Below are positions 1 to 37,747 of a DNA stretch of 56,831 nucleotides, piece by piece. Location: positions 1 to 56,831 of the IMG/VR virus record IMGVR_UViG_3300009372_003836; one strand, written 5' to 3'. The notes beneath the pieces were generated by a model, which did no database searches, was not told the origin of the DNA, and worked only from the letters and a program-made list of their open reading frames with translations. Position 1 is the stretch's first letter. Every line of letters starts with the position of its first letter. The position numbers were made by a program, and so were the translations under genes. The DNA is from a virus.

Positions 1-1908
1 TCATGAGTTTCCTAATACATCTCTTAGTAGCTTATCAAGATTGATTGTGTTTTCGTTCTTTGCTGCTCTTCTGAATGTTTTGCCCTTGCGTACGATTTTC
101 GGCTTAGCCTCTTCAGGCTCGACTTCAATCTCAGATGATACTTTTGTTTCTTCGCTCTCTGGGAACGGCTCCATTCTCCAGTCTTTGCCAAGATGACCTT
201 TGACTGCTTTTGCATTCATGGGATCTTCAAGTATTTTCTTAAGATGCATATAACTGCCTTTGTCCTTGCGCCTAATTAGACCTTCAACAGCTTTTGATAG
301 TGCTTCGATGCCATTCTGCTTATTGAAGTGGAATTTTGATGACTTGGCACCAGGGAATTCCATATCAGATGCAAGATAGCGCAAGACTAGCTCTAAATAT
401 TGATCAAGCAAGCTGTCTTTTCCCTCACTCGAAGGCTTATCTTTTAGCTGTCCTAGTACTTTTTCAACTCCGCCCTCTTCTGGATTTGCCATTATTTCAT
501 CAACATCTGTATGTTTTCTAAGAAAAGATTTTATCTTTTTAGCATCTTCCGGGGGTGCTATTACGAATTCAACATATTTTTCTTCAAATGCATCCGGGCC
601 AATAGACAGGCCGAACATTAGCTTCATAAATCCTTCGTCTTTGACATTTCTGAAAACTGATGTTCCCATTGCTTTTTCAATATCGAACAAGTCTGCAGTT
701 TGTGCTGCTAAAGAGGCGTCAGTTTGTGCTGACGGTGGAATAAACGTTCCAGGCATTGCATCGATATCTCTAGAGCGCTTTTTGTGATGATGAAGCTTGG
801 TAGCAATTCTTTTTAGTTCTCGGCCGTCTTCTGACTGTTGGTATTTGTGCCAAACATTTTGTGATTCTACAGGTTCTCCGTCATTATCTTTGATCATATC
901 TTGTTCAATTGATGATAGTGTATCTTTTACACGACCTGTTATTGCTTTTTCTCTTGCCAGCAAAGCTTGAAGATTTTCCTCGCTGGGCTTTGCAGGTTTC
1001 TTGTAGAATGCATCAATTGCTATAGACTCAGGAGATGTCATGTATATATTGTGAACTTGCTCAAGCTCATTAAATGTAAGCTCTGTATCTAGATCATCTC
1101 CCTGGGCGATTGCAAGATCAATATCATCTGCCTTTCCAGGGAATAATTCTTTGGCAATTTGAATTCTTTTTGCGAGACCATCGAAAATAACACTTTGCGC
1201 GGGAGCGGATCTAGCTTTTCCGGCGGCTACAGCATCTGCTTTAATTCTTTCAACATTCTTTCGAATATCTGCCATTGTAATATTTGAAGCTAAATTACCA
1301 GATTTTCCGACAGAGGACAATGAATCAGTTGACGATTTTCTTATGCCTCCTTGAGTACCGAGATCTTCTTCGTCTTCATCTCTATCTACTTCACCATACC
1401 CGCCATCATATGATGCAGCCTTTGCAACATCTTTTCTCATTGATCCGTCGGCGCCGTGCATTGAACCAACGTTGTCGTAGAATCCTTCTGATATTAGATA
1501 GAGTAGTTTTTCTGCCGCAGTAGCCTCATGTAGTGAAAATACATTATCAGGAGTAATTTCTGCTTTTTGTCGAATTACATTATGCATATTGTCTAATGTT
1601 TTCTTTACAATTTTATATGCAGTACCAACTGATTTTTCAGGTACATCATCTAGCATTTTTTCTATTGAGATTTTTAATGCATCAGAATCTTCTGGAACAT
1701 AGCTTGGATCAGCTACAGGTGGGCCGAGTGTATGATCAAAAACTACCGGATCTGCCTCAAGTGGTGTATCTGGTTGATCTAAAGGAACTTCTGCAACAAG
1801 GGCAGGGTCTAAAGCTAGTTTTTCTTCAGCTTCTTTTTCATTTTGTGCTTCTAAAAGCAGCGTCTTTACAAAATCTCGTAAAGCTTTTTCAGTAATCTTG
1901 ACAGCCAT
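1..1908 (-). CDS. Large leader-bearing protein of unknown function
   Basis: A 635-residue protein I do not recognise. I chose the ATG at 1908 because TTGGAG lies 7 bases upstream; an in-frame TTG at 1935 has no such site. The N terminus (MAVKITEKALRDFVKTLLLE, then A) matches the short leader shared by at least eight other proteins in this window, ending in a hydrophobic-x-Glu site. The body is charged and largely helical, with an acidic stretch around residues 180-190 and a basic C-terminal patch. No enzyme motif is visible. An ATATTTAT box lies 29 bases upstream. By analogy with T4 internal proteins it may be packaged in the head; that is inference. Confidence 0.85.
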   Translation of the reverse strand: MAVKITEKALRDFVKTLLLEAQNEKEAEEKLALDPALVAEVPLDQPDTPLEADPVVFDHTLGPPVADPSYVPEDSDALKISIEKMLDDVPEKSVGTAYKIVKKTLDNMHNVIRQKAEITPDNVFSLHEATAAEKLLYLISEGFYDNVGSMHGADGSMRKDVAKAASYDGGYGEVDRDEDEEDLGTQGGIRKSSTDSLSSVGKSGNLASNITMADIRKNVERIKADAVAAGKARSAPAQSVIFDGLAKRIQIAKELFPGKADDIDLAIAQGDDLDTELTFNELEQVHNIYMTSPESIAIDAFYKKPAKPSEENLQALLAREKAITGRVKDTLSSIEQDMIKDNDGEPVESQNVWHKYQQSEDGRELKRIATKLHHHKKRSRDIDAMPGTFIPPSAQTDASLAAQTADLFDIEKAMGTSVFRNVKDEGFMKLMFGLSIGPDAFEEKYVEFVIAPPEDAKKIKSFLRKHTDVDEIMANPEEGGVEKVLGQLKDKPSSEGKDSLLDQYLELVLRYLASDMEFPGAKSSKFHFNKQNGIEALSKAVEGLIRRKDKGSYMHLKKILEDPMNAKAVKGHLGKDWRMEPFPESEETKVSSEIEVEPEEAKPKIVRKGKTFRRAAKNENTINLDKLLRDVLGNS

Positions 1909-1936
1909 TAATTTACTCCAAGGACGATAAGTCAAA

Positions 1937-1944
1937 ATAAATAT
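1937..1944 (-). promoter_or_regulatory. ATATTTAT box upstream of the 635-residue gene
   Basis: Sense-strand ATATTTAT in the gap between two genes, 29 bases before the ATG at 1908. One of eight exact intergenic copies; candidate phage late promoter element. Confidence 0.4.
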
Positions 1945-1956
1945 GGACTAGCATTG

Positions 1957-2388
1957 CTATTTTATCTGATTTAATGCCCATGCAGATGCCATTGTCAAAG
2001 CAATTCCTGACAATACACCTCCTGAGAACCACCAGCTTGATTTTGGGTTATTGGTCTTGTCTAGTCTTTCGACCAAAAAATCGATTTGTGAATCTTTGAT
2101 ATCTACTTTTATCTTGTGGATATCTTTGAGGTCTGTTATTTCATTGTCTTTTTTTGTAAGATTGCTCGCACATATAGTTTCGCTAGTTTGTTTTTGCGCA
2201 TCTACCCTGTTTTGGCATTGCTGCGCAGCAACTTCTTTGTCTACTATAAGCTTTGCAACTGCTGACGACTTTACGTGCACACCATCACACGGTGCAGGTT
2301 GACCTTGTGTTCTTGGCGTCAGGTCAGCACAATCTGCATATGATGCATGGGGTGCCACTAAAAGAATGGCGACTAAAAGTAGTCTCAC
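1957..2388 (-). CDS. Secreted, C-terminally membrane-anchored coiled-coil protein
   Basis: A 143-residue protein. The N terminus is a signal peptide (LLLVAILLVAPHASYA, cleavage likely near residue 18). The mature part has several cysteines and a helical, charged middle around residues 60-115, and ends in a hydrophobic segment (residues about 120-140) that could span a membrane. The start is GTG and its GTGA overlaps the stop of the tubulin-like gene, so the two are translationally coupled. The topology resembles small phage envelope or lysis accessory proteins (spanin-like), but no family is recognised. Confidence 0.75.
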   Translation of the reverse strand: MRLLLVAILLVAPHASYADCADLTPRTQGQPAPCDGVHVKSSAVAKLIVDKEVAAQQCQNRVDAQKQTSETICASNLTKKDNEITDLKDIHKIKVDIKDSQIDFLVERLDKTNNPKSSWWFSGGVLSGIALTMASAWALNQIK

Positions 2389-3407
2389 TTAAGACCACCC
2401 AAAGCCAAGACTGTCACCAAACCTGGGAGAGCATCTCGAACATAAATCCCAGTAAATAGTGTGTTAGTTCTTCCGCCAACATATGCAGCTGATGCCTCTA
2501 GGTGGCCGCTTATGCTTGCATCGTTTGCATGATCCTCAGTAATTACCTGGAGAAGAACACCTGTCTCAGCATGCCCAGAAGGAGTAGGGCAAGGAGAGTT
2601 ATTAATACATGACTGATAGAGTTGCACACCTAGGTTTGGGCCGGGCGCACAAATTGCAGAACCTACAATCATTCGACCAGGGGCTGCGAGGAATCGCTCT
2701 AGATCCTTGCCATCAAATACTTGGACGGGTGATGGTTCACTAGCTAGCTTGAGCAGCTGCCAAAACATCTTTGAAAATGCTTTGTTAGCAGCAGGATATA
2801 AGCCCAATACTCCGACCTTTCCTCTAAATGCATTTAATTGCTTCTCATTATCAATGATTATATGTGGGTCATTCTTTACATCAGCATGTAATGATTTTGC
2901 ATTTGCCTTAATTGTTGCATTCAGTTTCTCTTGCGCTGATGGCTGTGATACGATATAGACTACCTTGCCTGTCGCCTCTCCTGTCTCAAGGAATCTCTTG
3001 AATACCGGATCAAGTGTGTATGCAGATGATCCTGTTCCTCCGCCGGCGCCGGCGCAAACAAACAACCAGTCAACCTTGCCTAGTTTAGTCCTTAATGCAT
3101 CCTCAACAAATGCACTGTTCTCTGACAGAACCTTTCGTCCAAGCTCAATATTCTTTGCTAGCCCATCAGACCCAGGAAGAACGACCATGTGATCTGGATC
3201 AACGCCCGTCTGGAAGTCTTTAGTCGTCGTATTGAGAAGAACTGTCTTTGTGAAGCCAAGATCTAAGAATGACTTTGCAATCTTGCATCCTCCGCCGCCT
3301 ACGCCGACGAACGCACAGTTAATAGCTGACTCTGCAACATTTGCTGCAAGTGTCTCAAGGTTTGCTTGCGGCTCTTCATATGCATCAATAAAATCAAACT
3401 CACTCAT
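2385..3407 (-). CDS. Tubulin/FtsZ-like GTPase
   Basis: A 340-residue tubulin-superfamily GTPase. The nucleotide-binding landmarks are in order: a glycine-rich first loop (GVGGGGCK, residues 35-42), an N-T-T loop near residue 60 and the tubulin signature GAGGGTGSS (residues 120-128), then a strand (VVYIVSQP) and the IIIDNEKQL segment where FtsZ and tubulin have their base-contacting Asn. Family members polymerise with GTP. Phage members (PhuZ, TubZ-type) position phage DNA or a replication compartment, or move DNA. The ATG follows CGGAG by 8 bases. It is coupled to the membrane-anchored protein downstream. Its exact role here is unknown. Confidence 0.85.
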   Translation of the reverse strand: MSEFDFIDAYEEPQANLETLAANVAESAINCAFVGVGGGGCKIAKSFLDLGFTKTVLLNTTTKDFQTGVDPDHMVVLPGSDGLAKNIELGRKVLSENSAFVEDALRTKLGKVDWLFVCAGAGGGTGSSAYTLDPVFKRFLETGEATGKVVYIVSQPSAQEKLNATIKANAKSLHADVKNDPHIIIDNEKQLNAFRGKVGVLGLYPAANKAFSKMFWQLLKLASEPSPVQVFDGKDLERFLAAPGRMIVGSAICAPGPNLGVQLYQSCINNSPCPTPSGHAETGVLLQVITEDHANDASISGHLEASAAYVGGRTNTLFTGIYVRDALPGLVTVLALGGLK

Positions 3408-4530: not shown

Positions 4531-5187
4531 TCAACCTCCTGCGCCACCTCCGCCGGATCCTGCACCAACTGCAGGAGGCGCAGGAAGATCAGCATCAATA
4601 ACTTTTTCAATTTCTGCTTCTGGGACTGAGAGTTGGAACTTATCCATGAGCGCACTTTCAAAATCTTCAGCAACATTTTTATTATAGTTTGTTTCAAGAT
4701 ATTGTACAGCTCTATTGATAATAGCTGCCTTTAAGTCCAAAACTTTTTCAGGTAACTCAGCTAAGCGTGCAACCTTAAGTGCAAAAGTAGTAATATCAAT
4801 TTCCGGAATCTCTTCTTCGTTTTCATCAGAAATTTCATCTTCTTCTACCTCGTCAGCTTCTTCAGCTGCTTCTTCAGTATCTGCCTTTATATCTTCTTCA
4901 GATTCTTCCTCTTCAACATTGTCTTCTTCAGTTTTATCTTCATCTGATTGTTCTAGAATAAATCTAAGAGAGCATTTTTGAACTATTTCTTGAATTGCCT
5001 CTTCTTCGTTAGGAAGAGAGAGCTTTTCATACTGTAAAAAAAGTTCATCAATTTGATCATCTATAGAATCTAAAGCTGAATCTTTATCTGACTCCTCAGA
5101 TTCTTCTGGTGTCTCTTCTTCAGCTTGTTCTAAAATCATTCCTGAAAATTGTTCTGATATTAATTTTCGCAATTCTTTTTCATTCAT
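4531..5187 (-). CDS. Acidic leader-bearing protein with Gly-rich tail
   Basis: A 218-residue protein of unknown function. The N terminus (MNEKELRKLISEQFSG) fits the shared leader, with hydrophobic-x-Glu sites LISE and MILE. Residues about 75-130 are almost entirely Glu and Asp. A helical domain follows, and the end is Pro/Ala/Gly-rich (GAGSGGGGAGG). It is in an operon with the superoxide dismutase upstream, 3 bases apart. It may be packaged in the head; this is inference from the leader. Confidence 0.8.
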   Translation of the reverse strand: MNEKELRKLISEQFSGMILEQAEEETPEESEESDKDSALDSIDDQIDELFLQYEKLSLPNEEEAIQEIVQKCSLRFILEQSDEDKTEEDNVEEEESEEDIKADTEEAAEEADEVEEDEISDENEEEIPEIDITTFALKVARLAELPEKVLDLKAAIINRAVQYLETNYNKNVAEDFESALMDKFQLSVPEAEIEKVIDADLPAPPAVGAGSGGGGAGG

Positions 5188-5190
5188 TTT

Positions 5191-5877
5191 TTAGCCTCTC
5201 ATGATCTGAGCTATTTCATCTGCTCTTTTAAATCTTTGCTCAATTACGTTCCAGTTTAGTTCTTTCATCATATTGACTGTATAGCTTGCCACGTCTTTTA
5301 AATAATCACTATAGTATGCGTGCTGCCATACATCCATTGCTATGACTGGGATTACGCCCACAGGAACATTGACAGAATGTAAGTCAATCACATAGTTCAT
5401 GTATGTATGTGTATAGACATTAAATCCGGTTATAACCCAGCCGCATCGAGAAGCTTTTGCACATGCTACAAAGTCTCTTTGCCAATCATCGAAACTTCCA
5501 AAGTCTCTTTCAAGGCGCATAAATGAAAGCGTATCCATTGTAATTTCACTTTGAAGATCGCCAATATTAGCAAAATAAAGTTCATGCAAATATGTAGCGT
5601 TTAGATTATAAGTTTCATCAATTTTTAAACTTCGAAACTTAGATGTGTTAGATGAAGCAGTATTTCTATCTGCTGCATCAAGCTCAGCGCTTATTTGATT
5701 AAAGTCTTTTGTATATTGCTCATACAGACTATAATGATTTCGTATATTTTTTCCTGATAGTGACTCAGTGGGGATGGAAAAAGGTTTGGGTTGAACAACC
5801 AAAGACTCTTCTAGCATTTTGTCATTATTAATCCCTAAAGATTCGCGTATATTTTTTGCTACATCTGATTTTTTCAT
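5191..5877 (-). CDS. Fe/Mn superoxide dismutase-like protein with virion-type leader
   Basis: A 228-residue protein related to iron/manganese superoxide dismutase, which disproportionates superoxide. The best evidence is the C-terminal DVWQHAYY (residues 182-189) followed by the family's NW...RF ending; D182 and H186 match two metal ligands. The other two ligand positions differ: where most enzymes have NHxxxW, this has NATYLHELYF, so H98 lies one helical turn after the usual His (A94 here). The first ligand may be H48. The N terminus (KNIRES, KMLEES) fits the shared leader, so it may be packaged and injected. Activity is unproven. Confidence 0.8.
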   Translation of the reverse strand: MKKSDVAKNIRESLGINNDKMLEESLVVQPKPFSIPTESLSGKNIRNHYSLYEQYTKDFNQISAELDAADRNTASSNTSKFRSLKIDETYNLNATYLHELYFANIGDLQSEITMDTLSFMRLERDFGSFDDWQRDFVACAKASRCGWVITGFNVYTHTYMNYVIDLHSVNVPVGVIPVIAMDVWQHAYYSDYLKDVASYTVNMMKELNWNVIEQRFKRADEIAQIMRG

Positions 5878-5883: not shown

Positions 5884-6150
5884 TTAACCTAACTTATAGC
5901 TATTCATTAATTCTTTTGTTGTGACTTTTTTTCGACCCTCAGGTCCTGAGAGGACGAAGCCATCATCTGTTTTTTTAGTAACATGATATTCTTTGCTACT
6001 TTTTTTACAACAAACTCTTAGGCCTCTATCTATTAAATCGGGAGATTTTCCGAGATTATGCTTATTACTATCACATTTATCATCTTTTAATTTTTGCTTT
6101 TCTTCTTCAATAATCTTAAGAATTCTTTCTCTTGTAAGCATAATCGACAT
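5884..6150 (-). CDS. Small basic leader-bearing protein
   Basis: An 88-residue protein, unrecognised. The N terminus (MLTRERILKIIEEEK from residue 4) resembles the shared leader with a hydrophobic-x-Glu site. A Cys-Cys pair and a Cys near residue 26 are present, and the C-terminal half looks like a small beta-rich domain (YHVTKKTDDGFVLSGPEGRK). GGAGAG lies just before the ATG, and an ATATTTAT box is 20 bases upstream. Confidence 0.7.
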   Translation of the reverse strand: MSIMLTRERILKIIEEEKQKLKDDKCDSNKHNLGKSPDLIDRGLRVCCKKSSKEYHVTKKTDDGFVLSGPEGRKKVTTKELMNSYKLG

Positions 6151-8462: not shown

Positions 8463-9193
8463 TAGATTCCCTTTTCTTCTATTTCTAGTATTGCTTTGAC
8501 GTGTGCATATGCCACTTTATCTTTATACTCATTTGTCATCATTTGTTCACATTGGATTCGATTGGTGAAGAATCCGTTCTCAGTTAAGATTGCGGGCATG
8601 GTTGTCTTTTTCAATACAAAGAACTTGGCTTTCTTGACTCCTCGATCTTTCCACCCAGTTTGCTCAACAATGTGTTTTTGGAATATCACGGCCAAAGAAT
8701 GACCGGTTGGTGATCCGGGACAGCAATAAGTTTCAACCCCGGATGCTGATGACCAATTGTCACTTGCTGCGTTTGCATGCACTGAGATGTATAGTTTTGC
8801 AAGCCCTAGGTCATCAGCTGCAGTTGATGCAGCAACACGCATAGGCAATGACATATCATCGTCCGACTTTACTAAGTTGAAATATGCGACACCATGTGAA
8901 TCCAGCTGTGCTGTAATTCTTCTTACAACATCTCGGTTAAATGCATATTCAAATAGTTGGCGGTCGTCGTTCATTTTGGGCGAGCGCTTTCCGGGCGTTG
9001 TGTGGCCGTGACCGTTATCCAGGATCCACAGATATCGCTGCCTGTGTTCTTTCTTTTTCACTTCAATCTCCTTGACAGGTTCTACAACACTATCTAGGCT
9101 CTTTATCTTAAGTTTGACTGCTTCTTTCCTTGGGACCAGCGTTTGTGCGATGACCTCTAGAAAGCTAGTGATTATTGAGAATATGTGTTCCAC
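8462..9193 (-). CDS. N-acetylmuramoyl-L-alanine amidase (endolysin)
   Basis: A 243-residue Amidase_3-type zinc enzyme that cuts the bond between muramic acid and L-alanine in peptidoglycan. Zinc-site motifs: DNGHGHTTPGKRSP (first His), YISVHANAA (second His) and PAILTENGFFTN (catalytic Glu). I chose the GTG at 9193, which has GGGAG nine bases upstream; longer frames only shadow the IMP dehydrogenase gene. A hydrophobic N terminus ([18 protein letters not shown]) might be a signal-anchor. Likely the main lysis enzyme. Confidence 0.88.
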   Translation of the reverse strand: MEHIFSIITSFLEVIAQTLVPRKEAVKLKIKSLDSVVEPVKEIEVKKKEHRQRYLWILDNGHGHTTPGKRSPKMNDDRQLFEYAFNRDVVRRITAQLDSHGVAYFNLVKSDDDMSLPMRVAASTAADDLGLAKLYISVHANAASDNWSSASGVETYCCPGSPTGHSLAVIFQKHIVEQTGWKDRGVKKAKFFVLKKTTMPAILTENGFFTNRIQCEQMMTNEYKDKVAYAHVKAILEIEEKGI

Positions 9194-9776
9194 TTTCGTT
9201 TGCTCCCGATGATGTTTGTCGGATAAACTGTGAACGTCGTTGCAGCTCTGTAATTGTTCGAGCACCTGAATATGACATTCCACTCCGCAAACCTTGTGTT
9301 AGGTTACTAACTATGTCCCTCACTGAGCCTTTATGTGCCACTGTGGTTGAAATCCCCTCAAGACTACTTGCTCTTCCTCGCCAATTGAACTGTGCTTCGG
9401 GGCTGGCCATACCCCTATACGTCTTTCTCTTCTCGCCGTCGACGTAGACAATATCTCCGGGAGCTTCGTCGGTCCCTGCGAGAAGTGAACCTAGCATTAC
9501 AGCGTCAGCGCCTGCAGCAATAGCTTTTACGATATCTCCGGAGTTTTTAATGCCGCCATCGGCAATGATTGCTACGTTTCGATCTGTATGATAGCAGTCA
9601 AAGATTGTTTGCAGGCCTGGGACGCCATGGCCGGTCTGGATGCGAGTTGAGCAGATTGAATTGTGCACTACAATGCCGTCAACATTATACGAGTGATCAT
9701 CCTCAACTGTTAAGTCATGAACTTTTCCCTCATAGTGCTTCATTCTCTTCTTAAACTCAACTAATTCGAACTTCAT
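9165..9776 (-). CDS. guaB: IMP dehydrogenase C-terminal half with C-intein
   Basis: A 203-residue product. Residues 1-39 are a C-terminal split-intein fragment ([19 protein letters not shown], ending VVHN). The extein then begins SICSTR, the active-site loop with the catalytic Cys of IMP dehydrogenase. [12 protein letters not shown] and TYRGMAS follow, which favour IMP dehydrogenase over GMP reductase. After trans-splicing with the N half (10818-11660) the product would be about 342 residues with no CBS domain. IMP dehydrogenase oxidises IMP to XMP, the first step towards GTP. The intein pair closely resembles, from memory, the split intein called IMPDH-1. Confidence 0.92.
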
Positions 9777-10767
9777 TTATAAACCCTTCAATTTTTTCTA
9801 TTTCATCAATAAAATCAACGCTTCTATTTTTTGGCTCTTTTACTCGATACAAAGGATATCCACTTCTTTTTGCAATGTCATCCTTAATATCGTCTCTTGA
9901 TTTTGAATTATTATGCCAGTAATAACCATCATATTCTATCAAATATTTTCCAAAAACTATAAAATCATAAAACTTTCTCTCTATCTTAAATTGCCTACTT
10001 ATGTTTCTCCTGCCAAACTTAGCACATAACATTTCATATAATCGTCGCTCAGGGGAAGATCCGGCTCGACCCATCTTTTTCTTATGCACAGTTTTTTCAA
10101 ATTCATCTTCATCAACTATATTAAAAAAGAACAAATATTTTTTAATCGATCTTATGTCTATGTTGCCCGCGAGTCTTTTAAGATCACTCTGGTTAAACTC
10201 GAGTGTGGTCGAATACGTGTGCCACAGGCCCTCCAGCTTGCTTTCAGTCAAACCTAGACGTCGCAGTGTTCTTTCAAGAACTAAGACTTTATTTTCTTCT
10301 CTAAATTTTTTGTTTCCATCAATTATCTTCTGTTTTGTAGCATCCGAGTGTATTTTGCCGTAAAATGGATTTTTGTCTCCGGATAGCTTTCCTGATAGAG
10401 CATTTCTTATCTTCTCCCTGGTTTCTTTAGAGTGCTTCTTGCCATAAAATGAGTTATTCTTGCCAGCCTTTGCTAGCCCTTTGCATTTGTTTGAACAGTA
10501 TTTGGTGCCGCGGCCCAATATTTCTTCTTTGCATTCTTGACAGAGCTTTTTCTTATATCCATTTTTAACTCTCGTCCCTTTAGTTCTGCATTCTTTAGAG
10601 CAGTATAGCCGACTAGAACCCTGGCAAGCAAAGTCTTCTTTGCAATAATTGCACTTTTTTATATCATCAACTTTTCTATTTTTCTCATAGCAAATCGAAT
10701 CGCAAAATGTTTTTTTGCTCGATATTGATTCTCCGCACTCTCTACAATATTTTTCTTTACTACACAT
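9757..10767 (-). CDS. Homing endonuclease, Vsr-like, between the IMP dehydrogenase halves
   Basis: A 336-residue protein. I use the ATG at 10767 because AGGGAG lies 9 bases upstream; a TTG at 10800 lacks one. The N half carries four Cys-rich zinc-finger-like repeats (CxxC pairs), then NUMOD3-like segments (GKKHSKETREKI and FYGKIHSDATKQKI). The C-terminal nuclease has a Vsr-like core, FYDFIVFGKYLIEYDGYYWH, followed by YRVKEP. This matches the endonuclease family described with fractured, split-intein genes. It overlaps the C half by 20 bases and probably spreads the split-intein allele. Confidence 0.85.
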   Translation of the reverse strand: MCSKEKYCRECGESISSKKTFCDSICYEKNRKVDDIKKCNYCKEDFACQGSSRLYCSKECRTKGTRVKNGYKKKLCQECKEEILGRGTKYCSNKCKGLAKAGKNNSFYGKKHSKETREKIRNALSGKLSGDKNPFYGKIHSDATKQKIIDGNKKFREENKVLVLERTLRRLGLTESKLEGLWHTYSTTLEFNQSDLKRLAGNIDIRSIKKYLFFFNIVDEDEFEKTVHKKKMGRAGSSPERRLYEMLCAKFGRRNISRQFKIERKFYDFIVFGKYLIEYDGYYWHNNSKSRDDIKDDIAKRSGYPLYRVKEPKNRSVDFIDEIEKIEGFINEVRIS

Positions 10768-10788
10768 TGAATATGGCTCCCTATGTAT

Positions 10789-10796
10789 ATAAATAT
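10789..10796 (-). promoter_or_regulatory. ATATTTAT box upstream of homing endonuclease
   Basis: Sense ATATTTAT, 22 bases before the ATG at 10767, between the IMP dehydrogenase N-half stop and the endonuclease. Suggests the endonuclease has its own, perhaps late, promoter. Confidence 0.4.
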
Positions 10797-10817
10797 ACAA
10801 GTAGATACATTTTGATC

Positions 10818-11660
10818 CTATTCCAATGTTTTTATTAAAAGATGTTGCTGTTCGTCTAGATCATATGCTGCGATCCACTTTGCATACTCGTGAATATTGT
10901 TTTCATTGATAAGTTCGACATCTTCTCTGTTTACGACATAAAATTCATGATTTGATGTACATTCAATATCGTTAATCACAGTTATTGCTTCACTTCTATC
11001 AAAAGCTAATGTATCAATAACTGGCTTTAGATTTCCTGTATGTGTATAGACTCTATCACCGACTTTAACATTTTCAATATTCTTTAAACCGTTTTCAGTT
11101 CGAACTTTTGTACCCGGAACAAAGCAGCCTCCGCCGATGTTGCAGCGTACTGCGTTAGCCCCCCAATCAGCGAGGTCGTTAATTCCCTCGAGGGTGGCAA
11201 CATTACCTGCAATCAAGCAAAAATCCTCACCCAGAGTAGCACGAAGCTCCTCTAGCACCTCTTTTACGAGAATGTGGTGACCATGTGCCACATCAATGCA
11301 AAGAGCAGAGGCTCCAGCATTAACAAGAAGGTCTGCTCGGTGAAAATAGTCATCTGTTACTCCAATCGCTGCGGCAATAGGTGCCTCATGCTCTGATAAT
11401 TGTATTGCTTTTATTACTTGCTGTGCTTGTTCCTCTGGCGAATTATACCGGTGGATGACGCCGAGGCCACCCATAAGACCGATTGCTGCAGCCATCTCAG
11501 CTTCAGTCACCGTGTCCATGCATGATGCAATAATGGGTAGCTTGAGATTGACTCCGGAGCCGAGAGTGACTGATGTGTCACATTCTGATCGGGATTTAAT
11601 GTCTGAGTATTGGGGGACGAGTAGAACATCTTCGTAGGCAAGAGTCTCTTGGATTTTCAC
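10818..11660 (-). CDS. guaB: IMP dehydrogenase N-terminal half with N-intein
   Basis: A 280-residue product. Residues 1-178 are the first half of the TIM barrel of IMP dehydrogenase (EDVLLVPQYSDI at the N terminus, MGGLGVIHRY, then GNVATLEG and NIGGG). Residue 179 is the Cys that opens the N-intein (CFVPGTKVRTENG). The fragment runs 102 residues, includes the block-B-like CTSNHEF, and ends at a stop. The break falls just before the active-site loop. Starts at GTG after an AGGAG, with a TATAAT box 25 bases further upstream. Confidence 0.92.
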   Translation of the reverse strand: MKIQETLAYEDVLLVPQYSDIKSRSECDTSVTLGSGVNLKLPIIASCMDTVTEAEMAAAIGLMGGLGVIHRYNSPEEQAQQVIKAIQLSEHEAPIAAAIGVTDDYFHRADLLVNAGASALCIDVAHGHHILVKEVLEELRATLGEDFCLIAGNVATLEGINDLADWGANAVRCNIGGGCFVPGTKVRTENGLKNIENVKVGDRVYTHTGNLKPVIDTLAFDRSEAITVINDIECTSNHEFYVVNREDVELINENNIHEYAKWIAAYDLDEQQHLLIKTLE

Positions 11661-11710: not shown

Positions 11711-12916
11711 TTACTTAATTCCCGCTAAAAGTTCCCAGCGATTTTGTGTAGATTCGTTGAGGTTTTGTTTCTCAGCCCAGGCTGCAAAAAGCTTACGATC
11801 TTCAGGATTGTCGAGGCTAACGGGAGAGTTTTCCGGCTTCTTGAATGCACTTCCCTTTATTCTTGGGCGGAGGGCGCGAGCACCGTGATAGTTTCTAAAA
11901 GTAACTGCTGCACCGACGTCGTCCGGGAAAGTAAACAGCGATGTCTTCCTTCCGTCACCTAGGGTTGCAGCATTTTTTTCATCTATATGATATAATCCCT
12001 TGCCCCGTATTTGAATAAACTTAGCCCCTTTTTCTCTATAGTACATCGCTATGTCTTCAGAGGTAATTTTTGAATTAGATACATTTTGATTTGCCTCTTT
12101 TTCTAGAAAAGGCTGAACTATTGTTTCAAACTGCTCCATAGTGACTGACTGGAGCGTAGCAGCGTCGAGGTTGATTTTGTTTTTGATGATATCAAGTTTT
12201 CGCTTTGTCTCTTCTTTGTCAAATGTTGAGTTGATCATATCTACAAGGTAATTATTTGCACTTGAGCTACGCTTCGGATAAAATTCTGATTTGTTGAAGT
12301 CATACACAAGAGCTGGTGAACCACCATCGGCATCTTGTTTTTTGAGTTCGATCATAATTCCGTTTATCTCTATGTCTGACGTCTTCATGTTGTCGTCAGC
12401 TTTAAAGTCTATGTTTTCATCCTTAAGGAATTCTGCCATTCTTGTTTCATATTCGAACCCTCCGGCCCGTTGCGATTTTCCAAATCCAGAATTCCCAAAT
12501 GAAATTAGTGGTTGCCCTTCAACACTGTATCCTGCATATGTTCCGCTAGTATTTCTTCCCTCATTCGGAGAGAGAACTTCGACTTCGACATCTCTACCTA
12601 GTATTTTTTGGAATGCTAGTTCGACGAAAGTCAGGAGCTCTTTTTCAGTTTTGGGCTCTGTAACATCCTGATCTATTGCTACCCGAATTTCGCCTCCAGA
12701 TTTTATACTTGCTTTAACATGTTTGTCTCTGACCGGGAGCCCTAATGACTTCAGCACTTGTATGAAAATAGCTGCTTTGTTTTTTGCAACTGTTGACATC
12801 TCGAACGGCGTCAAATCTTCTTTCTCTACTTCGAGCGCTTCTTCTTCTTCAGGCTCTTCTTGCTCTTGCAGAATAGATCTAATTAGCAATCGCAAGTCAT
12901 TTTCATTTAGTGTCAT
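11711..12916 (-). CDS. Leader-bearing protein with PD-(D/E)XK-like nuclease motif
   Basis: A 401-residue protein. The N terminus (MTLNENDLRLLIRSILQEQE) is the shared leader, followed by an acidic stretch. Around residues 153-192 is a pattern typical of PD-(D/E)XK nucleases: an upstream Glu (GFEYETRM), then SDIEINGIMIELKKQ with D181, E190 and K192 in place. The rest is not recognised. If the leader targets it to the capsid, it could be a nuclease injected with the DNA. Both leader role and nuclease activity are inference. An ATATTTAT box lies 24 bases upstream. Confidence 0.82.
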   Translation of the reverse strand: MTLNENDLRLLIRSILQEQEEPEEEEALEVEKEDLTPFEMSTVAKNKAAIFIQVLKSLGLPVRDKHVKASIKSGGEIRVAIDQDVTEPKTEKELLTFVELAFQKILGRDVEVEVLSPNEGRNTSGTYAGYSVEGQPLISFGNSGFGKSQRAGGFEYETRMAEFLKDENIDFKADDNMKTSDIEINGIMIELKKQDADGGSPALVYDFNKSEFYPKRSSSANNYLVDMINSTFDKEETKRKLDIIKNKINLDAATLQSVTMEQFETIVQPFLEKEANQNVSNSKITSEDIAMYYREKGAKFIQIRGKGLYHIDEKNAATLGDGRKTSLFTFPDDVGAAVTFRNYHGARALRPRIKGSAFKKPENSPVSLDNPEDRKLFAAWAEKQNLNESTQNRWELLAGIK

Positions 12917-12948: not shown

Positions 12949-13623
12949 TTACATTGGTGTGTTAGGCAAGTTTTCTTTTGCCCAGTCGAGCCATATCTGT
13001 CTGACTTTCTCGATCTCTTGATCTTCTTTTCCGTTTGTGAACATTGCCCTATGCTTGACCAAGAAATCATCTATAGCTTGAGTTAAAGTAGATTTCATTT
13101 TTTTCCTTCTGGCATTGAAGCCGTTAACGAAGGCTGGTATTTCGTGCGGGAGTAAAAGATATTCTGCATACGGAAGTGTGCTTTTCTGATGTGAATCTTT
13201 TAGCCCTTTACTTGGATTTCTATCCTGGGTTATATGCTCTATTTCGTGTCGGATGGCATCGTGGAGTTCGATATTGATATCTGACCAGATGTTTGGTTCG
13301 TATTCTGGATTTATTGTCAAGTTTAGTTCGATAGCATCGCCTGAAGCTCCTCCGTTTAATGTGAACGGAATTCCCCACTCTGGATCTCGGAGGACATCAA
13401 GTGTGACCTCAACGTCGTCCCAGGTTTCAGGGTCATCAAACTCGTCGTCAGGATCGATTAGATTGTGGTTTTTGATTGTTATGTCAGTTATGAATGGATC
13501 TTCTGTTTCACCTGATTTGATATATTGCATCATTTCGAATGATAAGTGACGAACTTTGACGTCGTGTTTGGATTCTTTTAGGAACCCACGCCAGTTTTCC
13601 ATTATTAGTTTCATATTAGGCAT
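12949..13623 (-). CDS. Leader-bearing HExxH metalloprotease-like protein
   Basis: A 224-residue protein. Its N terminus (MKLIMENWRGFLKES from residue 4) is a leader of a slightly different type, ending in FLKE before Ser. The motif RHEIEH (H126, E127, H130) is an HExxH zinc site, and E161 in LLLPHEIPAF could be the third ligand. No signal peptide. The gene is 6 bases from the leader-bearing gene upstream. A packaged protease is possible; it could also be a structural protein with a coincidental motif. Confidence 0.8.
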   Translation of the reverse strand: MPNMKLIMENWRGFLKESKHDVKVRHLSFEMMQYIKSGETEDPFITDITIKNHNLIDPDDEFDDPETWDDVEVTLDVLRDPEWGIPFTLNGGASGDAIELNLTINPEYEPNIWSDINIELHDAIRHEIEHITQDRNPSKGLKDSHQKSTLPYAEYLLLPHEIPAFVNGFNARRKKMKSTLTQAIDDFLVKHRAMFTNGKEDQEIEKVRQIWLDWAKENLPNTPM

Positions 13624-13629: not shown

Positions 13630-14076
13630 TTACGACTTCCATCGCCTTTTTAAAAATGATGCACTCATTGGATTAGACATAATTTCTTCAGATATTCCAA
13701 CGAAAGAATCCCAGCCGTCATCTTGAAGGTCGTCAATAGATTGATTTGATACTTTTAAATACTCATCTAAATATTTTGACAAACGGTTTAAATGTTTTTT
13801 AACTGATTTAGGTTTGTTTCCTAAAGCAGCTGAAATTAAAAGCCTCTTTATTTGAGGCCTAAACCGAAGCCAACCTTGAATTTCTGTATATGTTTTTCCT
13901 TCATCGTAAAGTGCAGCAAGACCCATAAACTGACTTATCTCGTCAGGAGATAGTTCTGACTTTAACATTTCGTCAGCTTTATCCCAAATCGTTTCGTGAT
14001 CATGTTCAGATGATTCATTGATTCTGCTTAGTTCTTCTCGAATTATTTGACGTAATTCATTTAACTTGATTTGCAT
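13630..14076 (-). CDS. Leader-bearing protein of unknown function
   Basis: About 148 residues. I use the ATG at 14076, 7 bases after GGAG; a GTG at 14082 sits too close to it. The N terminus (MQIKLNELRQIIREELSRIN) is a textbook example of the shared leader, with sites IIRE and RINE. The remainder is helical with a basic patch (KRLLISAALGNKPKSVKKHL). No family recognised. It heads a two-gene unit behind an ATATTTAT box. Confidence 0.75.
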   Translation of the reverse strand: MQIKLNELRQIIREELSRINESSEHDHETIWDKADEMLKSELSPDEISQFMGLAALYDEGKTYTEIQGWLRFRPQIKRLLISAALGNKPKSVKKHLNRLSKYLDEYLKVSNQSIDDLQDDGWDSFVGISEEIMSNPMSASFLKRRWKS

Positions 14077-18025: not shown

Positions 18026-18337
18026 CTATGCCTTCTGTGCATGCTGGTGCTCGATCCATGCTAGCTCAATCTGCGCATACCGAGGATCAGCGGCAGATCT
18101 CTCTATGGGGTTCTCGTCGGTTTCAAGTGAATGAATAAGCTCTTCAAGAGACATTGTATCACTTGCGGTGCTCAATATCGTAGTGGCTGCATCATACTCT
18201 CGTCGCATGCTATCTGGTAGGGGTTTATAGTTTACCTTCCTTGATCTTCTTAGGAATGAAAGTGGGTCGAAAGAGTCGCCTGTATCAGCAATTGCTTCTT
18301 TAATTAAGCATCTTAGCTCAGCGAGAGTTATTTTCAT
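18026..18337 (-). CDS. Leader-bearing small protein
   Basis: A 103-residue protein, function unknown. The N terminus MKITLAELRCLIKEAI is a clear shared leader with the site LIKE before Ala. The remainder is helical, with a basic patch (RRSRKVNYK) and an acidic C-terminal half. An ATATTTAA variant box lies 25 bases upstream and overlaps the epimerase stop codon. Confidence 0.75.
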   Translation of the reverse strand: MKITLAELRCLIKEAIADTGDSFDPLSFLRRSRKVNYKPLPDSMRREYDAATTILSTASDTMSLEELIHSLETDENPIERSAADPRYAQIELAWIEHQHAQKA

Positions 18338-21289: not shown

Positions 21290-21473
21290 CTATTACCTCG
21301 TAACCATCTGGGTATATACTTATCTTTTCACCATTAACAAGAATCTTATCCAGTGGATACCCACTATTGTCAACGCCCTTATTCACTATCAATACTCCTA
21401 TTTTTCCTAGATGAGTATCATCAACTGTTGATACTTTTATAATTTTTACCAAGTCACCAACTTTAATCAACAA
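21282..21473 (-). CDS. Small beta-barrel protein, KOW/SH3-like
   Basis: A 63-residue protein with the look of an SH3-like barrel (KVGDLVKIIKVSTVDD, then GKIGVLIV and a Pro-Asp-Gly turn). Starts at TTG, 6 bases after AAGGA. Overlaps the polymerase C-half stop and the kinase start by 11 and 8 bases. Function unknown. Confidence 0.7.
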   Translation of the reverse strand: MLIKVGDLVKIIKVSTVDDTHLGKIGVLIVNKGVDNSGYPLDKILVNGEKISIYPDGYEVIDD

Positions 21474-24081: not shown

Positions 24082-25009
24082 GCACTTTCCTTGCCTTCTC
24101 GTAGAATTCTTTCGGTATGTCTTTCTTTACAACAATTCTTTGCTCATATTTTCTGTCTTTGCACCACTCTATTAAAGCAGATTGCTTTCTCTTTATCTCG
24201 TCTTCTCTTTGATACATAAATCCCTTTAAGGTCCCCTTGACTTCAACTATTAGATTTCCATCAACAATAAAATCAGGATAATAGCTTCTGTTTCCATCCC
24301 ATTTTATTCCCTCTAGATTATAACGCCCAATATTTCTTTTTACACTAACCATCCACAGAATAAAAGATAGTTCAATTAAGCTTTGATACCTCATTCCGCT
24401 GTAGCTACCATGATATTGTTGCTTTGAGTTATTCATCACCTTGTTTGCATACTCCGGATCTTTCCATTTTTCTCGAAGTGAGCTTGATACTCTTTTTGCA
24501 TACTCCGGATCTTTCCACAGTGTTAAGCCGATCTGGCGATATTTTTCTTTCATTCCGGGCTGTGCATGTCGTCGAAGTTGTGAAACTCGTTGCTTCTCTT
24601 TTGCCTCTGGTAAATTTTGCGAAACAAGCTGTGCACTTCTATTCTTTTCTCGCCACACTTTTGACGAAGTCACAATCTTAGCATAGTGATCTGGGCATAT
24701 CGGGTCGTTGCTATACGTTCGTCCTCTAAGCTTGATCGCTAACATGCTGTATTTGCAATTACACGTCTTGCATCTAAAATAAACTCGTGCCTTTCCGGGT
24801 GTCTTGTTATCAAACTCACCCCATGAATACCCAAAATTATAATCAAATTCAAGATCATATATCTGGTGCTTTATCGCCATTCTTGTCAGGCCAGTTTCTT
24901 TCTTAATGACTTCGAGCATCTCTTGACTAATAAACATCTGGTCATTGCCTGCTAGAAGTTTGTCAATATATTTTTTGTTTTCTTTTGAAAGTGTTTTTCG
25001 AGTTTTCAT
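24062..25009 (-). CDS. PD-(D/E)XK homing endonuclease between dnaE halves
   Basis: About 315 residues. I use the ATG at 25009, 7 bases after GAGAGG; a TTG at 25024 is less likely. The middle has a Cys pair and tandem helical repeats (WKDPEYAKRV and WKDPEYANKV). The C terminus has the nuclease core YYPDFIV, then LIVEVKG, a PD-(D/E)XK signature rather than the Vsr-like core of the other two split-intein endonucleases. It lies between the two dnaE halves and overlaps the C half. It likely homes the intein-bearing allele. Confidence 0.85.
   Translation of the reverse strand: MKTRKTLSKENKKYIDKLLAGNDQMFISQEMLEVIKKETGLTRMAIKHQIYDLEFDYNFGYSWGEFDNKTPGKARVYFRCKTCNCKYSMLAIKLRGRTYSNDPICPDHYAKIVTSSKVWREKNRSAQLVSQNLPEAKEKQRVSQLRRHAQPGMKEKYRQIGLTLWKDPEYAKRVSSSLREKWKDPEYANKVMNNSKQQYHGSYSGMRYQSLIELSFILWMVSVKRNIGRYNLEGIKWDGNRSYYPDFIVDGNLIVEVKGTLKGFMYQREDEIKRKQSALIEWCKDRKYEQRIVVKKDIPKEFYEKARKVHDKINL
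24444..24517. repeat. Pair of 23-base direct repeats inside an endonuclease gene
   Basis: The segment beginning TTTGCATACTCCGGATC occurs at 24444-24466 and again at 24495-24517. It encodes the repeated WKDPEYA motif of the dnaE endonuclease. Confidence 0.8.
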
Positions 25010-25063
25010 ATTTTGCCCTCTCAATATAAGTATATCGGGCCGGGTCGAATAACTAAACTATTT

Positions 25064-25071
25064 ATAAATAT
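25064..25071 (-). promoter_or_regulatory. ATATTTAT box upstream of dnaE homing endonuclease
   Basis: Sense ATATTTAT overlapping the dnaE N-half stop region, 55 bases before the ATG at 25009. Further upstream than other copies of the element, so weaker. Confidence 0.3.
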
Positions 25072-26636
25072 CAAACATCAACAATAACATCTTCGTCGCT
25101 TAAGTTTTGAGCCTCAACCCATCCTCGATTTGACGTCAAGAACTTATGATCTACTGTGCACTTAATTACGATACCATCATCAAATTCAAGCTCAACAATA
25201 TCTTCCTCGATATCATATACAAACTTCTTTATAACCTCTTGACTTTCTCCGTATGCGTCAATTACGTGATCACCGGGAGAAATTGCTTCAATTGTGTTCA
25301 TTAATCCGTCGGACATTTTTACACGTGTATCAGGTAAAAAGCAGCCGCGGCCAGGCCCAAAGAGAGTTTTCTTCTCGGCCAAGTGGAAAACATCATACAT
25401 TGTCAGGAAGTAGTTTTCAAATCCGAGGAACTTAATGTCAGCTAGCTCTTCTTTGATCCTCGCAACATACTCAGGTTTTTCGGCCATATCATGACTGATC
25501 ATTGCTGCTTTTACAAGCTTTCCAAGCTGCTGAAAGGGTGTATCTTTGGGTGCCTCAGGATAGCATGCATGTCCCTTTTGAGGCACAGCATAGTTTGGTA
25601 GCTTAGCCTTAGAGTCGACCCATACATCTTCATAACGATCCCAGACAATATCGTGTGTCCTCTCTACACTATCTCTAATAAGCTCTTCCCTGCCTTTGTA
25701 AAAGTCATAGGCATGCCAGTCGCGGTCGAACTCATCCCACACCTCTGAGGCATTTTTTGGATAAAGCTCACACTTTAGCTCGTCGAACTTCGGCAAAGGT
25801 GACGGATCATTTCCCATCCAGCCTAGCTTCTTATATAGCTCCCGGGCTTCCCATAATTCTTTGCCGGGATAGTGGGAGTCACATGTGGTGATAAGCCCGA
25901 TTCCCGTCTGATCGTGTAGTTCGAGAAGCGCACGGTTAGATAGATGCTGGGCTGGGAGCTTATTGAACTGCAGCTCATAGAAGAAGTTGTCTTGTCCTAC
26001 TGCATCGACAAACCGATCTGTTATGTTTCCGAGCACACCCATCAGATTCTTCATCTTTGACGGGTCATCTAGCAAATCAGGCTTAAGATCCATGAAATCA
26101 ACGCCCGGGAATTGCTGGAATGTTCGTCCTGCGGTAATTCCGCCAATGCATGCTGAGCTTACAGTTAGACCTTCGCTGTATTGCTTGAGAAGCTTGAAGT
26201 CAATTCGTGGGAACCGATAGAAGCCGTCGGTGTATCCTCTCTTTACTAGCGTGAAAAGATTGGCTAGGCCTGCTGCGTTTCTTGCAGTGATTACGAGGTG
26301 ATAGCGGCGCATCCATTCGGGTTTCCCCTTACCTCCGCCTTTTGACTCCTCCTCATTCTCAATGGTGTGTCCTTCAGATTTGAGATCATCTTCATTGTCA
26401 GAGCTTAGATCGGTTGTTGCAAGCTTCTCAGCTTTCTTTGCATCTCTCTCAGCCTTGACTTTTTCTTTGTGACCCAGGTAGTTTTGCTTCCAAACATCGA
26501 GATCCTCGACGAAGTAGAACTCAACACCGTATACCTGCCGATACTTGCGGCCGGCCTTCTTCATTTTGTCGAAGTGCTTGTGAGCATGTGCTAAGCCAGA
26601 GCCGTGACCGTGGTCAGTTAGTGCCCATGCATCCAT
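25071..26636 (-). CDS. dnaE: DNA polymerase III alpha, N-terminal half with N-intein
   Basis: A 521-residue product from the ATG at 26636. The PHP domain is visible (WALTDHGHGSGLAHAHKHF, then VYGVEFY), followed by the start of the palm region up to FGPGRG. The N-intein begins at Cys 432 (CFLPDTRVKMSDG), contains the block-B-like VDHKFLTSNRGW, and is 90 residues long. The PHP domain's first segment lies upstream but is cut off by a TAG (see 26697-26786), so this ATG may be a restart or the gene may be damaged. The break is at GPGRG|SGAGS, unlike the cyanobacterial DnaE split site. Confidence 0.92.
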   Translation of the reverse strand: MDAWALTDHGHGSGLAHAHKHFDKMKKAGRKYRQVYGVEFYFVEDLDVWKQNYLGHKEKVKAERDAKKAEKLATTDLSSDNEDDLKSEGHTIENEEESKGGGKGKPEWMRRYHLVITARNAAGLANLFTLVKRGYTDGFYRFPRIDFKLLKQYSEGLTVSSACIGGITAGRTFQQFPGVDFMDLKPDLLDDPSKMKNLMGVLGNITDRFVDAVGQDNFFYELQFNKLPAQHLSNRALLELHDQTGIGLITTCDSHYPGKELWEARELYKKLGWMGNDPSPLPKFDELKCELYPKNASEVWDEFDRDWHAYDFYKGREELIRDSVERTHDIVWDRYEDVWVDSKAKLPNYAVPQKGHACYPEAPKDTPFQQLGKLVKAAMISHDMAEKPEYVARIKEELADIKFLGFENYFLTMYDVFHLAEKKTLFGPGRGCFLPDTRVKMSDGLMNTIEAISPGDHVIDAYGESQEVIKKFVYDIEEDIVELEFDDGIVIKCTVDHKFLTSNRGWVEAQNLSDEDVIVDV

Positions 26637-35760: not shown

Positions 35761-36029
35761 GATATTGTTTGCTTATTATGTCTATGCTTAAGCGTTCTTC
35801 CTACCCAGGCAAGATCTTTCCCATCAGCAACCACGCCTCTATAGATTATCTCATCTCTCTTTGATACCGGATGCAAAAACTGGAACCAGACACTTTCTTC
35901 ACTTTTGTCTAAAGGATGATGGTTCTGATCTTTGAGCTTATCATTTACCTCACCCGTAGACAAACCCTCATCGATTAGATCAAATATTAGCTTTCGCCTT
36001 CGATGTGTATCTTTATTGGCGAACGGCAT
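35757..36029 (-). CDS. Small basic protein of unknown function
   Basis: A 90-residue protein. The first half looks like a helix-turn-helix (RRKLIFDLIDEGLSTGEVND); the second is beta-rich. No family recognised. The ATG overlaps the divergent ThyX gene end. Confidence 0.65.
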   Translation of the reverse strand: MPFANKDTHRRRKLIFDLIDEGLSTGEVNDKLKDQNHHPLDKSEESVWFQFLHPVSKRDEIIYRGVVADGKDLAWVGRTLKHRHNKQTIS

Positions 36030-37012: not shown

Positions 37013-37041
37013 AGTAGCCTCCTTATGAATTATTATAAATG

Positions 37042-37047
37042 ATTATA
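37042..37047 (-). promoter_or_regulatory. TATAAT box upstream of divergent ThyX
   Basis: Sense TATAAT, 30 bases before the ATG at 37012; a second TATAAT lies at 37032-37037. GGAG precedes the start. Confidence 0.35.
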
Positions 37048-37066
37048 TGCTATCAGGAGGTAATGT

Positions 37067-37747
37067 TCAAACGTGGTTTGAATCAATTATGGCAGTCACT
37101 GCTTCCATTCCTTCGTTCTCGACCTCTTCAATATTGATCTTCATGTCGCCCTCGGGATCAACAATGTGATGGAGCACAATTTGAACATTTGACATTGCAG
37201 GATTTTTCTTTGCTAACTGCCGAACTGCTTCGATATTTTTGGGTGAATCCTCAAAAAAGTGAAGAACTCGTGGTGTAAATGACGTTACATATCCTCGAAT
37301 CTTGTCAGCCTTAGCTTGAGGATTTGATGTATTTACAGTATCGATAATCTGCAGCTTTATGCCCATTGTCTTAAGAAAGTCTCTAATAGGACCTTTCGCT
37401 GCGGGACCTCGGGCTGTAAGGATTGCAGCAGCTGTAGTGCCGCATGATGCAACGTCTCTCAAAATATTCATAAGAGGAGTAGGACGACCATCTTTAACAA
37501 TATCAAACTCACTAAAGTCGAATACCTCACCTGGCTCTTCTTTGTAAATTGCATATTCTGCGGGAGACAATTCCTTGATTGTCTTGCCTTCTTTGTTTTT
37601 AACGAGAACGCTTGAATTTGTCAAAGCAAGTGTTTCATCAAAGTCAAAGACTGCAAAAGTATCGCAATCTGGTTTTAGATCAGGATTTAAATCCATCATA
37701 GATTCCCTGATTAAGCTTCGTAACTCTTTTACTGTAATTTTGATCAT
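37067..37747 (-). CDS. Leader-bearing HAD-family phosphatase
   Basis: A 226-residue protein. The N terminus MIKITVKELRSLIRES is the shared leader (LIRE before Ser). The body is a haloacid dehalogenase phosphatase: FDFDETL (motif I), LTARG (motif II), a Lys in PQAKADKI, and HFFEDSPKN (motif IV). Related to phage polynucleotide 3'-phosphatase and nucleotidase domains. The leader suggests it may be packaged and injected; its substrate is unknown. Confidence 0.85.
   Translation of the reverse strand: MIKITVKELRSLIRESMMDLNPDLKPDCDTFAVFDFDETLALTNSSVLVKNKEGKTIKELSPAEYAIYKEEPGEVFDFSEFDIVKDGRPTPLMNILRDVASCGTTAAAILTARGPAAKGPIRDFLKTMGIKLQIIDTVNTSNPQAKADKIRGYVTSFTPRVLHFFEDSPKNIEAVRQLAKKNPAMSNVQIVLHHIVDPEGDMKINIEEVENEGMEAVTAIIDSNHV

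Follow-up and report, generated by a model that had tools for sequence, protein, structure and literature searches.

Huge phages encode many proteins to which no function has been assigned, and the content of the phage head is known for few models only. The window analyzed in this work (the whole 56.8-kb IMG/VR virus record IMGVR_UViG_3300009372_003836, positions 1 to 56,831) contains 72 called genes, 72 of 72 on the minus strand, and raises the question why nine proteins with unrelated bodies should begin with a short leader containing hydrophobic-x-Glu (h-x-E). The original prediction likened these leaders to the capsid-targeting peptide of phage T4 internal proteins (IPs) and proposed that the carriers are packaged in the head, trimmed and injected as a toolkit of host-modifying enzymes. 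The comparisons presented here indicate that one kind of short removable tag very probably loads several unrelated proteins into the virus head. We assign a probability of roughly 85% to the reading that the leaders are lineage-specific capsid-targeting sequences, used in a T4-like manner and cut by the prohead protease, with much of the cargo ejected. Some other huge phages appear to tag tens to more than 100 proteins each.

The main reference for the window was G001, a syntenic contig of 235,681 bases with blastp partners for 50 of the 72 window genes in largely the same order. In G001 a T4-type prohead protease was recognized by PF03420 (87.8 bits, cut-off 27) and a gp23-type capsid protein likewise by profile match. 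A leader protein and a protein that looks scaffold-like by eye are encoded between the protease and capsid genes, and a portal gene, also recognized by eye, lies upstream of the protease. The nearest relatives of the window topoisomerase come from two uncultured phages (642 and 635 kb; ~50% identity).

A common leader on unrelated proteins

All nine open reading frames (ORFs; named here by their start positions) are present and every N-terminus contains h-x-E. Proteins 5187, 12916, 14076, 18337 and 37747 have the core h-R-x-h-h-x-[E/S] in common and score 29-33 bits each in a position-specific scoring matrix built from 13 seeds (five window leaders and eight G001 leaders), values that are partly due to construction because these leaders helped to seed the matrix. 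Judged from the window alone, 1908 (10.0 bits), 6150 (8.9) and 5877 (8.0) are borderline, and 13623 falls below the cut-off. At 12 bits the matrix found 5/72 window N-termini and 0/462 internal windows; at 8 bits or more it found 9/72 window genes, one of them a false call, against 0.16 expected from internal windows, and 16/260 genes of G001 against 0.39. A strict regular expression of the core matched 7/72 window genes (six leaders and one epimerase) versus 0.1 predicted from protein interiors, and a looser one gave a less clear-cut excess (7/72 versus 0.89 expected in the window, 17/260 versus 3.5 in G001). The false calls were 21282 (TTG start), which passes 8 bits, and the epimerase 18362, which matches the regular expression. 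The candidate leader of 14535 (...FQDVLSEGSS) was ruled out as its ortholog reads FQDVLQQTSS and the Glu is not kept.

Since the matrix seeds overlap the tested genes, the search was redone without any motif: all N-termini of one genome were compared pairwise, leaving out any two proteins whose bodies are related, with internal segments as the control. The biggest group in G001 comprised 13 genes, every one with the leader (biggest control group, 2), and that of the window comprised 37747, 18337, 14076 and 1908 (control, none). N-terminal pairs outnumber control pairs in every genome, e.g. 42 genes versus 9 in KVP40 and 67 versus 20 in XacN1; as small groups and pairs exceed the control everywhere, only large groups, by size and degree, are telling. 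T4 proved a mixed control: MKTYQEFIAEA was recovered as a common N-terminus, yet the biggest group displayed was endonuclease-like. At the level of sequence we regard the leaders as confirmed. Of the nine proposed originally, five are strong, 1908, 5877 and 13623 are upheld through an ortholog or a family, and 6150 remains weak.

The same leader was sought in IMG/VR with a DNA pattern (MKITxxxLRxII, then E(D/E) one residue on), which occurs in at least 120 stretches; the 80 listed loci were analyzed. The leader family has the consensus MKITxxQLRxIIKEExxxxLxE. At these loci 233 distinct leader proteins, counted without an internal control, fall into 189 blastp body families, 161 of them single, so that the leader is, as far as sequences tell, a detachable module on unrelated bodies. 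With the matrix at 12 bits, carriers make up 13/260 genes in G001, 21/225 in G006, 29/362 in G009 and 27/370 in G010, at 0.15-0.8 expected; the last three genomes are not a random sample because they were found via the leader pattern. A neighbouring leader gene accompanies 19/21, 26/29 and 22/27 carriers in G006, G009 and G010, respectively; G009, for instance, has arrays at 47940-56953 and 284505-286543. At the same threshold T4 has 2/255 genes versus 0.43 expected, and no gene with the window leader family was found in KVP40, XacN1, phiKZ and two megaphages.

Other leader families were observed in two megaphages. In LR756502 (642 kb) MK(H/Y)LKxYKIFE↓S and similar starts (the arrow marks the proposed cut) are present on 112/927 genes, with 0.9 expected, and in LR756501 (735 kb) MIKKYxxFINE↓A and similar starts on 51/959 genes, with 1.6 expected; the expected values come from the rate at internal Met residues and do not make a blind test, because the expressions were written after the N-termini had been seen. 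These sequences are other than those of the window family and more T4-like. In the motif-free comparison a single gene had up to 45 partners in LR756502 and 21 in LR756501 (controls, 3 and 6).

Among 84,980 prokaryote genomes the leader DNA pattern was found in only 6 stretches on 4 contigs. Two of the four pattern-bearing genomes encode an S77 protease, on the pattern contig or elsewhere, and two of the pattern contigs hold leader arrays; therefore they look like phage contigs binned with bacteria. The arrays are those of L503 (NHDW01000006.1, 306 kb, from a Methylococcaceae metagenome-assembled genome, MAG) and L504/L506 (PBIO01000025.1, 101 kb, from a Halobacteriovorax MAG), apparently phage contigs assigned to the wrong bins; a hybrid leader, MKHLRxYIRxIL, is present in L503.

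Several other repeated sequences were noticed. Two proteins (L293:3984-4706 and L327:5040-5963) have a second leader in mid-protein, as if neighbouring leader genes had fused in frame. In G009 (L472-L486) the hexamer MKVGDL recurs in 10 proteins besides the leader. DPYGEE, nearly always as DPYGEExW, occurs 109 times in 94/959 predicted proteins of LR756501.1 (loci L188-L224), near N-termini, near C-termini and in mid-protein, at 0.01 expected by composition and with none in ten other sequences checked; its distribution suggests a docking or sorting signal used across the proteome.

Cut motif, protease and capsid protein

The original prediction placed the end of the leader at the first h-x-E. 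This motif is indeed present, but a later h-x-E fits better in 1908, 5187, 5877, 12916 and 14076. Counted from the first core Glu, 30 leaders have a second h-x-E at +7 and 76 have one at +8 (of 219 used among the 233 listed), whereas shuffled sequences give about 8 per position, and at +5 to +10 its first residue is Leu in 97/133. By its sequence, the second h-x-E is the L-x-E expected for a T4-type protease. The window examples are at +8 (5187), +7 (14076) and +4 (1908 and 12916).

Two families of carriers allowed the site to be followed in alignments. Superoxide dismutase (SOD) relatives of 5877 were collected from 64 loci as 53 distinct proteins, and the short L455 was excluded from the 52-row alignment. 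[LIV]-x-E-[A/S] is present in 52/52 aligned relatives, with an invariant Glu that precedes A in 29 and S in 23 sequences; ahead of the site lies a variable linker, so the site is kept at varying distances; a stricter regular expression found it in 51/53 and misplaced that of L427. For the metallopeptidase 13623, the loci of 80 of 98 relatives gave 56 distinct ORFs, 27 of which were chosen and 21 aligned together with the window protein. E17 is kept in at least 90% of these 22 sequences, and two leaderless members begin immediately after the Glu position. In the AlphaFold model of 13623 the leader residues 1-18 have a predicted local distance difference test (pLDDT) value below 50.

The protease itself was looked for in 21 leader contigs picked from the listed IMG/VR loci, mostly by length. 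S77 was above the cut-off in 16/21, including 11/11 contigs of at least 170 kb. A leader ORF (at least 9 bits) lies within a 3.4-kb stretch around the protease at 16/16 loci and also in G001; it is usually of about 140 amino acids (aa) and starts like LKxLVKECLVEIL(A/S)E↓G. Nine other protease loci (T4, KVP40, XacN1, Lak-B1, four megaphages) have no leader ORF of the window family.

The capsid protein provides an independent view of the cut. The propeptide of T4 gp23 has been described as 65 residues long (PMC5694885, as far as available); in the T4 record it ends in F-L-T-E. At the aligned cut column the capsid proteins read L-L-R-E↓Q in G001, V-L-R-E↓A in G006 and G009, and L-L-R-E↓A in G010, hence the capsid cut motif in the four leader genomes is the motif carried by the leaders.

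The carriers and other genes of the window

All nine carriers are encoded on the minus strand. In 1908 the leader comprises aa 1-20 (MAVKITEKALRDFVKTLLLE↓A; 1849..1908) of a 635-aa ORF (1-1908) that continues past the window edge. Its cut motif is L-L-E↓A and the leader is a variant kept in the ortholog (G001 189681-191495), where 15/21 leader positions are retained versus an identity of 0.36-0.37 downstream. By eye 1908 resembles a core or scaffold protein of the prohead. The acidic 218-aa protein 5187 (4531-5187; 29.2 bits), a core protein by eye, has its leader in aa 1-20 (MNEKELRKLISEQFSGMILE↓Q; 5128..5187), and its ortholog reads ...FAAIISE↓Q. The weakest of the nine, the 88-aa protein 6150 (5884-6150), has a possible leader at 6100..6150; the ortholog leader is MSNPLTHEKVLAIIAEERQK, and a cut site with a small residue is not evident in 6150.

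The Fe/Mn superoxide dismutase-like protein 5877 (5191-5877) has a leader of aa 1-24 (5806..5877) with the cut motif L-E-E↓S. It matches Sod_Fe_C with 65.4 bits (cut-off 20.9), and H48, H98, D182 and H186, the putative metal-ligand positions of this family, are kept in 52/52, 51/52, 52/52 and 51/52 sequences, respectively. Its distant relative gp223 of PA5oct starts MNDSIKKYISIAE↓AAS, and the database record of this protein bears a note of electrospray ionization tandem mass spectrometry (ESI-MS/MS). The word superoxide does not occur in the main text of the MIJ3 paper, in which four structural proteins were identified (PMC6892783).

The 401-aa protein 12916 (11711-12916; 30.7 bits) has its leader in aa 1-18 (MTLNENDLRLLIRSILQE↓Q; 12863..12916). 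Its body is nuclease-like by eye, a candidate PD-(D/E)xK nuclease with no Pfam match below 0.1; a nuclease model built from two sequences reached pLDDT 41 and was left unused. Relatives in IMG/VR come from a single locus and are 100% identical. In G001 the adjacent genes 179423 and 180110 have a near-identical leader on unrelated bodies; 180110 is the ortholog of 12916, with an identity of 0.75 in the leader and 0.22-0.28 in the body. The putative metallopeptidase 13623 (12949-13623), a candidate zincin with its leader in aa 1-17 (MPNMKLIMENWRGFLKE↓S; 13573..13623), is backed by the alignment of its own family, in which HEIEH is invariant in the 22 sequences; a fold search with 13623 gave no PDB match at E≤0.001. 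The leaders of 5877 and 13623 differ from the core type of the window. Some metallopeptidase relatives are large fusions. Among relatives, a 907-aa protein of Flavobacterium phage immuto (L461:2691-5414), annotated as nicotinamide mononucleotide adenylyltransferase, contains HEMIHH and HEIEH segments, and VMAE-GRYD ahead of its HEIEH part corresponds to the leader/body junction of the stand-alone relatives.

The 148-aa protein 14076 (13630-14076; 31.5 bits) carries its leader in aa 1-21 (MQIKLNELRQIIREELSRINE↓S; 14014..14076), the ortholog reading MKITASKLRQIIREEVSRIREE. In the 103-aa protein 18337 (18026-18337; 33.1 bits) the leader spans aa 1-14 (MKITLAELRCLIKE↓A; 18296..18337) and has no second h-x-E; no blastp partner was found in G001. 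The HAD-like protein 37747 (37067-37747; 30.5 bits) has a leader of aa 1-15 (MIKITVKELRSLIRE↓S; 37703..37747), and that of its ortholog is MRITVGQLRTLIKEA. Its body, a candidate HAD-superfamily phosphatase, contains DFDET and matches PHROG 415, polynucleotide kinase, over residues 89-178 (E=1.7e-4), with a Pfam match below the cut-off.

Pfam and PADLOC were run on 90 of the 112 environmental carriers of at least 110 aa among the 233. Pfam matches included AAA_33 (4), zeta toxin (2), YkuD, HAD_SAK_1 and tRNA-ligase CPD (1 each), and PADLOC gave a single marginal match. The Pfam scan of megaphage carriers covered 96 of 141 listed references.

Other genes of the window were noted as well. The ORF at 2385-3407 encodes a Tubulin/FtsZ-like protein, 86% identical to its counterpart in G001, that reaches 30.4 bits with Pfam Tubulin, slightly below the cut-off of 33, and matches PHROG PhuZ (E=5.5e-4). 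Three genes are split (9165-11660, 21463-26636 and 54274-56669; by eye inosine monophosphate dehydrogenase-like, DNA polymerase III alpha-like and RecA-like); they have intein-like ends, a separate endonuclease-like ORF sits between the halves, and each pair of halves matches a single unsplit ORF in G001. We take them to resemble the "fractured gene" split-intein arrangement.

Interpretation and relation to known systems

Packaging into heads is well supported by comparison, and on head packaging with trimming as in T4 the original prediction finds strong backing in the S77 protease, the neighbouring leader ORFs, the capsid cut motif, the SOD motif and the unrelated bodies. Injection into the host we infer by analogy. 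In the mechanism that we propose, the N-terminal leader would dock a protein on the prohead core during core assembly; the S77 (gp21-type) protease would then cut after h-x-E (in many cases L-x-E), around residues 14-24, releasing the body inside the head, a step suggested by the motif, the gene context and homology. Some carriers would be core proteins. The SOD, the nuclease-like protein, the metallopeptidase, the HAD protein and small orphans would be retained in the mature head, and many of the retained carriers would enter the host together with the ejected DNA. Core binding, cutting, retention and ejection are all modelled on T4. One leader family per lineage would act as a transferable address tag, acquired by a gene through gain of the module. 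The idea of a toolkit fits only the enzyme-like part of the carriers, because 1908, 5187 and the ~140-aa neighbour of the protease look core- or scaffold-like.

A number of observations weigh against this reading. PF03420 and PF07068 had no match in the 56.8-kb window, which is itself a fragment, and no virion proteomics was found for the window phage. S77 was not detected in 5/21 leader contigs, each of at most 147 kb, and this S77 count covered leader contigs only. KVP40 and XacN1 encode S77 yet show no leader family, S77 matches in the four megaphages searched are below the cut-off (20-25 bits), and the capsid protein of LR756502 has no h-x-E at the gp23 cut column. The second h-x-E at +7/+8 occurs in at most 106/219 environmental leaders and in neither 18337 nor 37747. 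Of the pairs compared between the window and G001, only 1908 and 12916 have a leader that is clearly more conserved than the remainder of the protein; the other five do not show this contrast clearly, and for the SOD and 37747 the body is the better conserved part. Pfam assigned few bodies (10 families in the 90 carriers). The amphipathic character ascribed to the leaders was not borne out: their hydrophobic moment is above that of shuffled sequences (p<0.05) in only 2/9 and no higher in 7/9.

The leader could also be a capsid-targeting tag on carriers most of which are core or scaffold proteins, destroyed or expelled at maturation. This explanation, which overlaps the one we prefer and differs from it only in the last step, seems to us unlikely, though worth keeping in mind. 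In T4 this protease also processes the core proteins (PMC5694885, in the part available), and the ~140-aa protease neighbour, the acidic 218-aa 5187 and the 635-aa 1908 are core-like by eye; however, the SOD with its conserved ligand positions, the HEIEH peptidase and the HAD, YkuD, AAA_33 and zeta-toxin-like bodies are enzyme-like, and 13 to 112 carriers per genome seem too numerous for a core alone. An address elsewhere (a phage compartment, the membrane or the tail), with an incidental Glu motif, is considerably less probable: the tubulin-like gene of the window, with its PhuZ match, and the intracellular protein sorting reported for some jumbo phages (PMC13282480, as far as accessible) would suit it, but it is at odds with the [LIV]-x-E-[A/S] found without exception in the SODs, with the fixed spacing of h-x-E, with the matching capsid propeptide and with the protease/core gene context, although no search was aimed at the shell protein of the phage nucleus. 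Very improbable, too, is a nucleic-acid explanation, in which a DNA or RNA element located at the start codon, for example a translation signal, would account for the conservation and the peptide itself would be without a role. Codon sharing among the leaders of one genome (0.57-0.65 versus 0.43-0.49 predicted by codon usage) would agree with such an element but also fits recent duplication; moreover, third codon positions are the least conserved (0.56-0.64 versus 0.73-0.82 for first and second) and the h-x-E of the SODs is kept behind a variable linker at varying distance. Least credible of all is ordinary homology of diverged paralogs of one duplicated gene, since, despite paralog families with 7 and 6 members in the carrier set of LR756502 and with 11 and 7 in that of LR756501, the bodies span different Pfam folds and the carriers fall into almost as many families as there are proteins in G001 (13 into 13), G009 (29 into 28) and LR756502 (112 into 97), with 51 into 35 in LR756501 (blastp at 1e-3, by which remoter kinship is missed).

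Returning to capsid targeting, we lean, with less assurance than for the window itself, towards a more general proposal: T4-headed huge phages may each mark about 5-12% of their genes (13 to 112 proteins in the genomes analyzed here), often in tandem arrays, with their own lineage-specific peptide code, and so load, trim and deliver a large, fast-changing set of proteins with the genome. If so, the most repeated N-terminus of each genome would reveal its cargo directly, and hundreds of small proteins of unknown function would become a testable list of head cargo. The tag would also point to where anti-defence proteins may be sought, and short natural tags would be candidates for directing proteins into further heads of the T4 type.

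Among known systems the closest is T4, in which a shared leader on the internal proteins has been described (PMC9026906, PMC12373910), MKTYQEFIAEA in the T4 record. According to the parts of these two papers available, the first ten residues of IPIII suffice for incorporation, and the internal proteins, once injected, inhibit restriction enzymes; Ip1, Ip2 and Ip3, from a set recognized by its signal sequence, differ in the restriction enzyme that they block, and at least 10 Ips were reported among T4 relatives (PMC12373910). Like IPI-III and Alt of T4, which are cut by gp21, the window carriers have a short N-terminal h-x-E leader on unrelated bodies, and a gp21-type protease and a gp23-type capsid protein are encoded in the relative G001. 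The window-family leader differs in having its own sequence, with no clear resemblance to MKTYQEFIAE by eye; those of LR756502 and LR756501 are closer to it.

Many head proteins of phiKZ and SPN3US are likewise trimmed by a prohead protease, and ejection proteins are known (PMC5694885, in the part accessible). In SPN3US, however, several propeptides exceed 100 residues rather than forming one short common leader, and phiKZ gave no PF03420 match and no shared-leader group above two. The polyvalent proteins (PMC5512222, as far as available) are also predicted to be injected, with zincin-like metallopeptidases as their commonest domain, and some relatives of 13623 are large fusions too, whereas the window carriers are mostly short and have a common address tag. 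The accessible parts of a jumbo-phage survey (PMC7824862) and a review (PMC13282480) deal with prohead proteases or with proteins packaged in the head and do not mention a shared leader. The open-access literature on capsid targeting and jumbo or marine phages yielded work on T4 and SPN3US only, that on capsid targeting in metagenomes yielded none, and titles and abstracts on a megaphage prohead protease or a huge-phage internal-protein leader yielded nothing. Because no such description was found there, the leader families, the carrier numbers and the cargo look new, the principle being known from T4. Against the three IPs of T4, the 13 to 29 window-family carriers per genome include predicted enzymes, e.g. 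SOD, and over all leader families the carriers per genome amount to four to almost forty times that number, with unusual predicted cargo.

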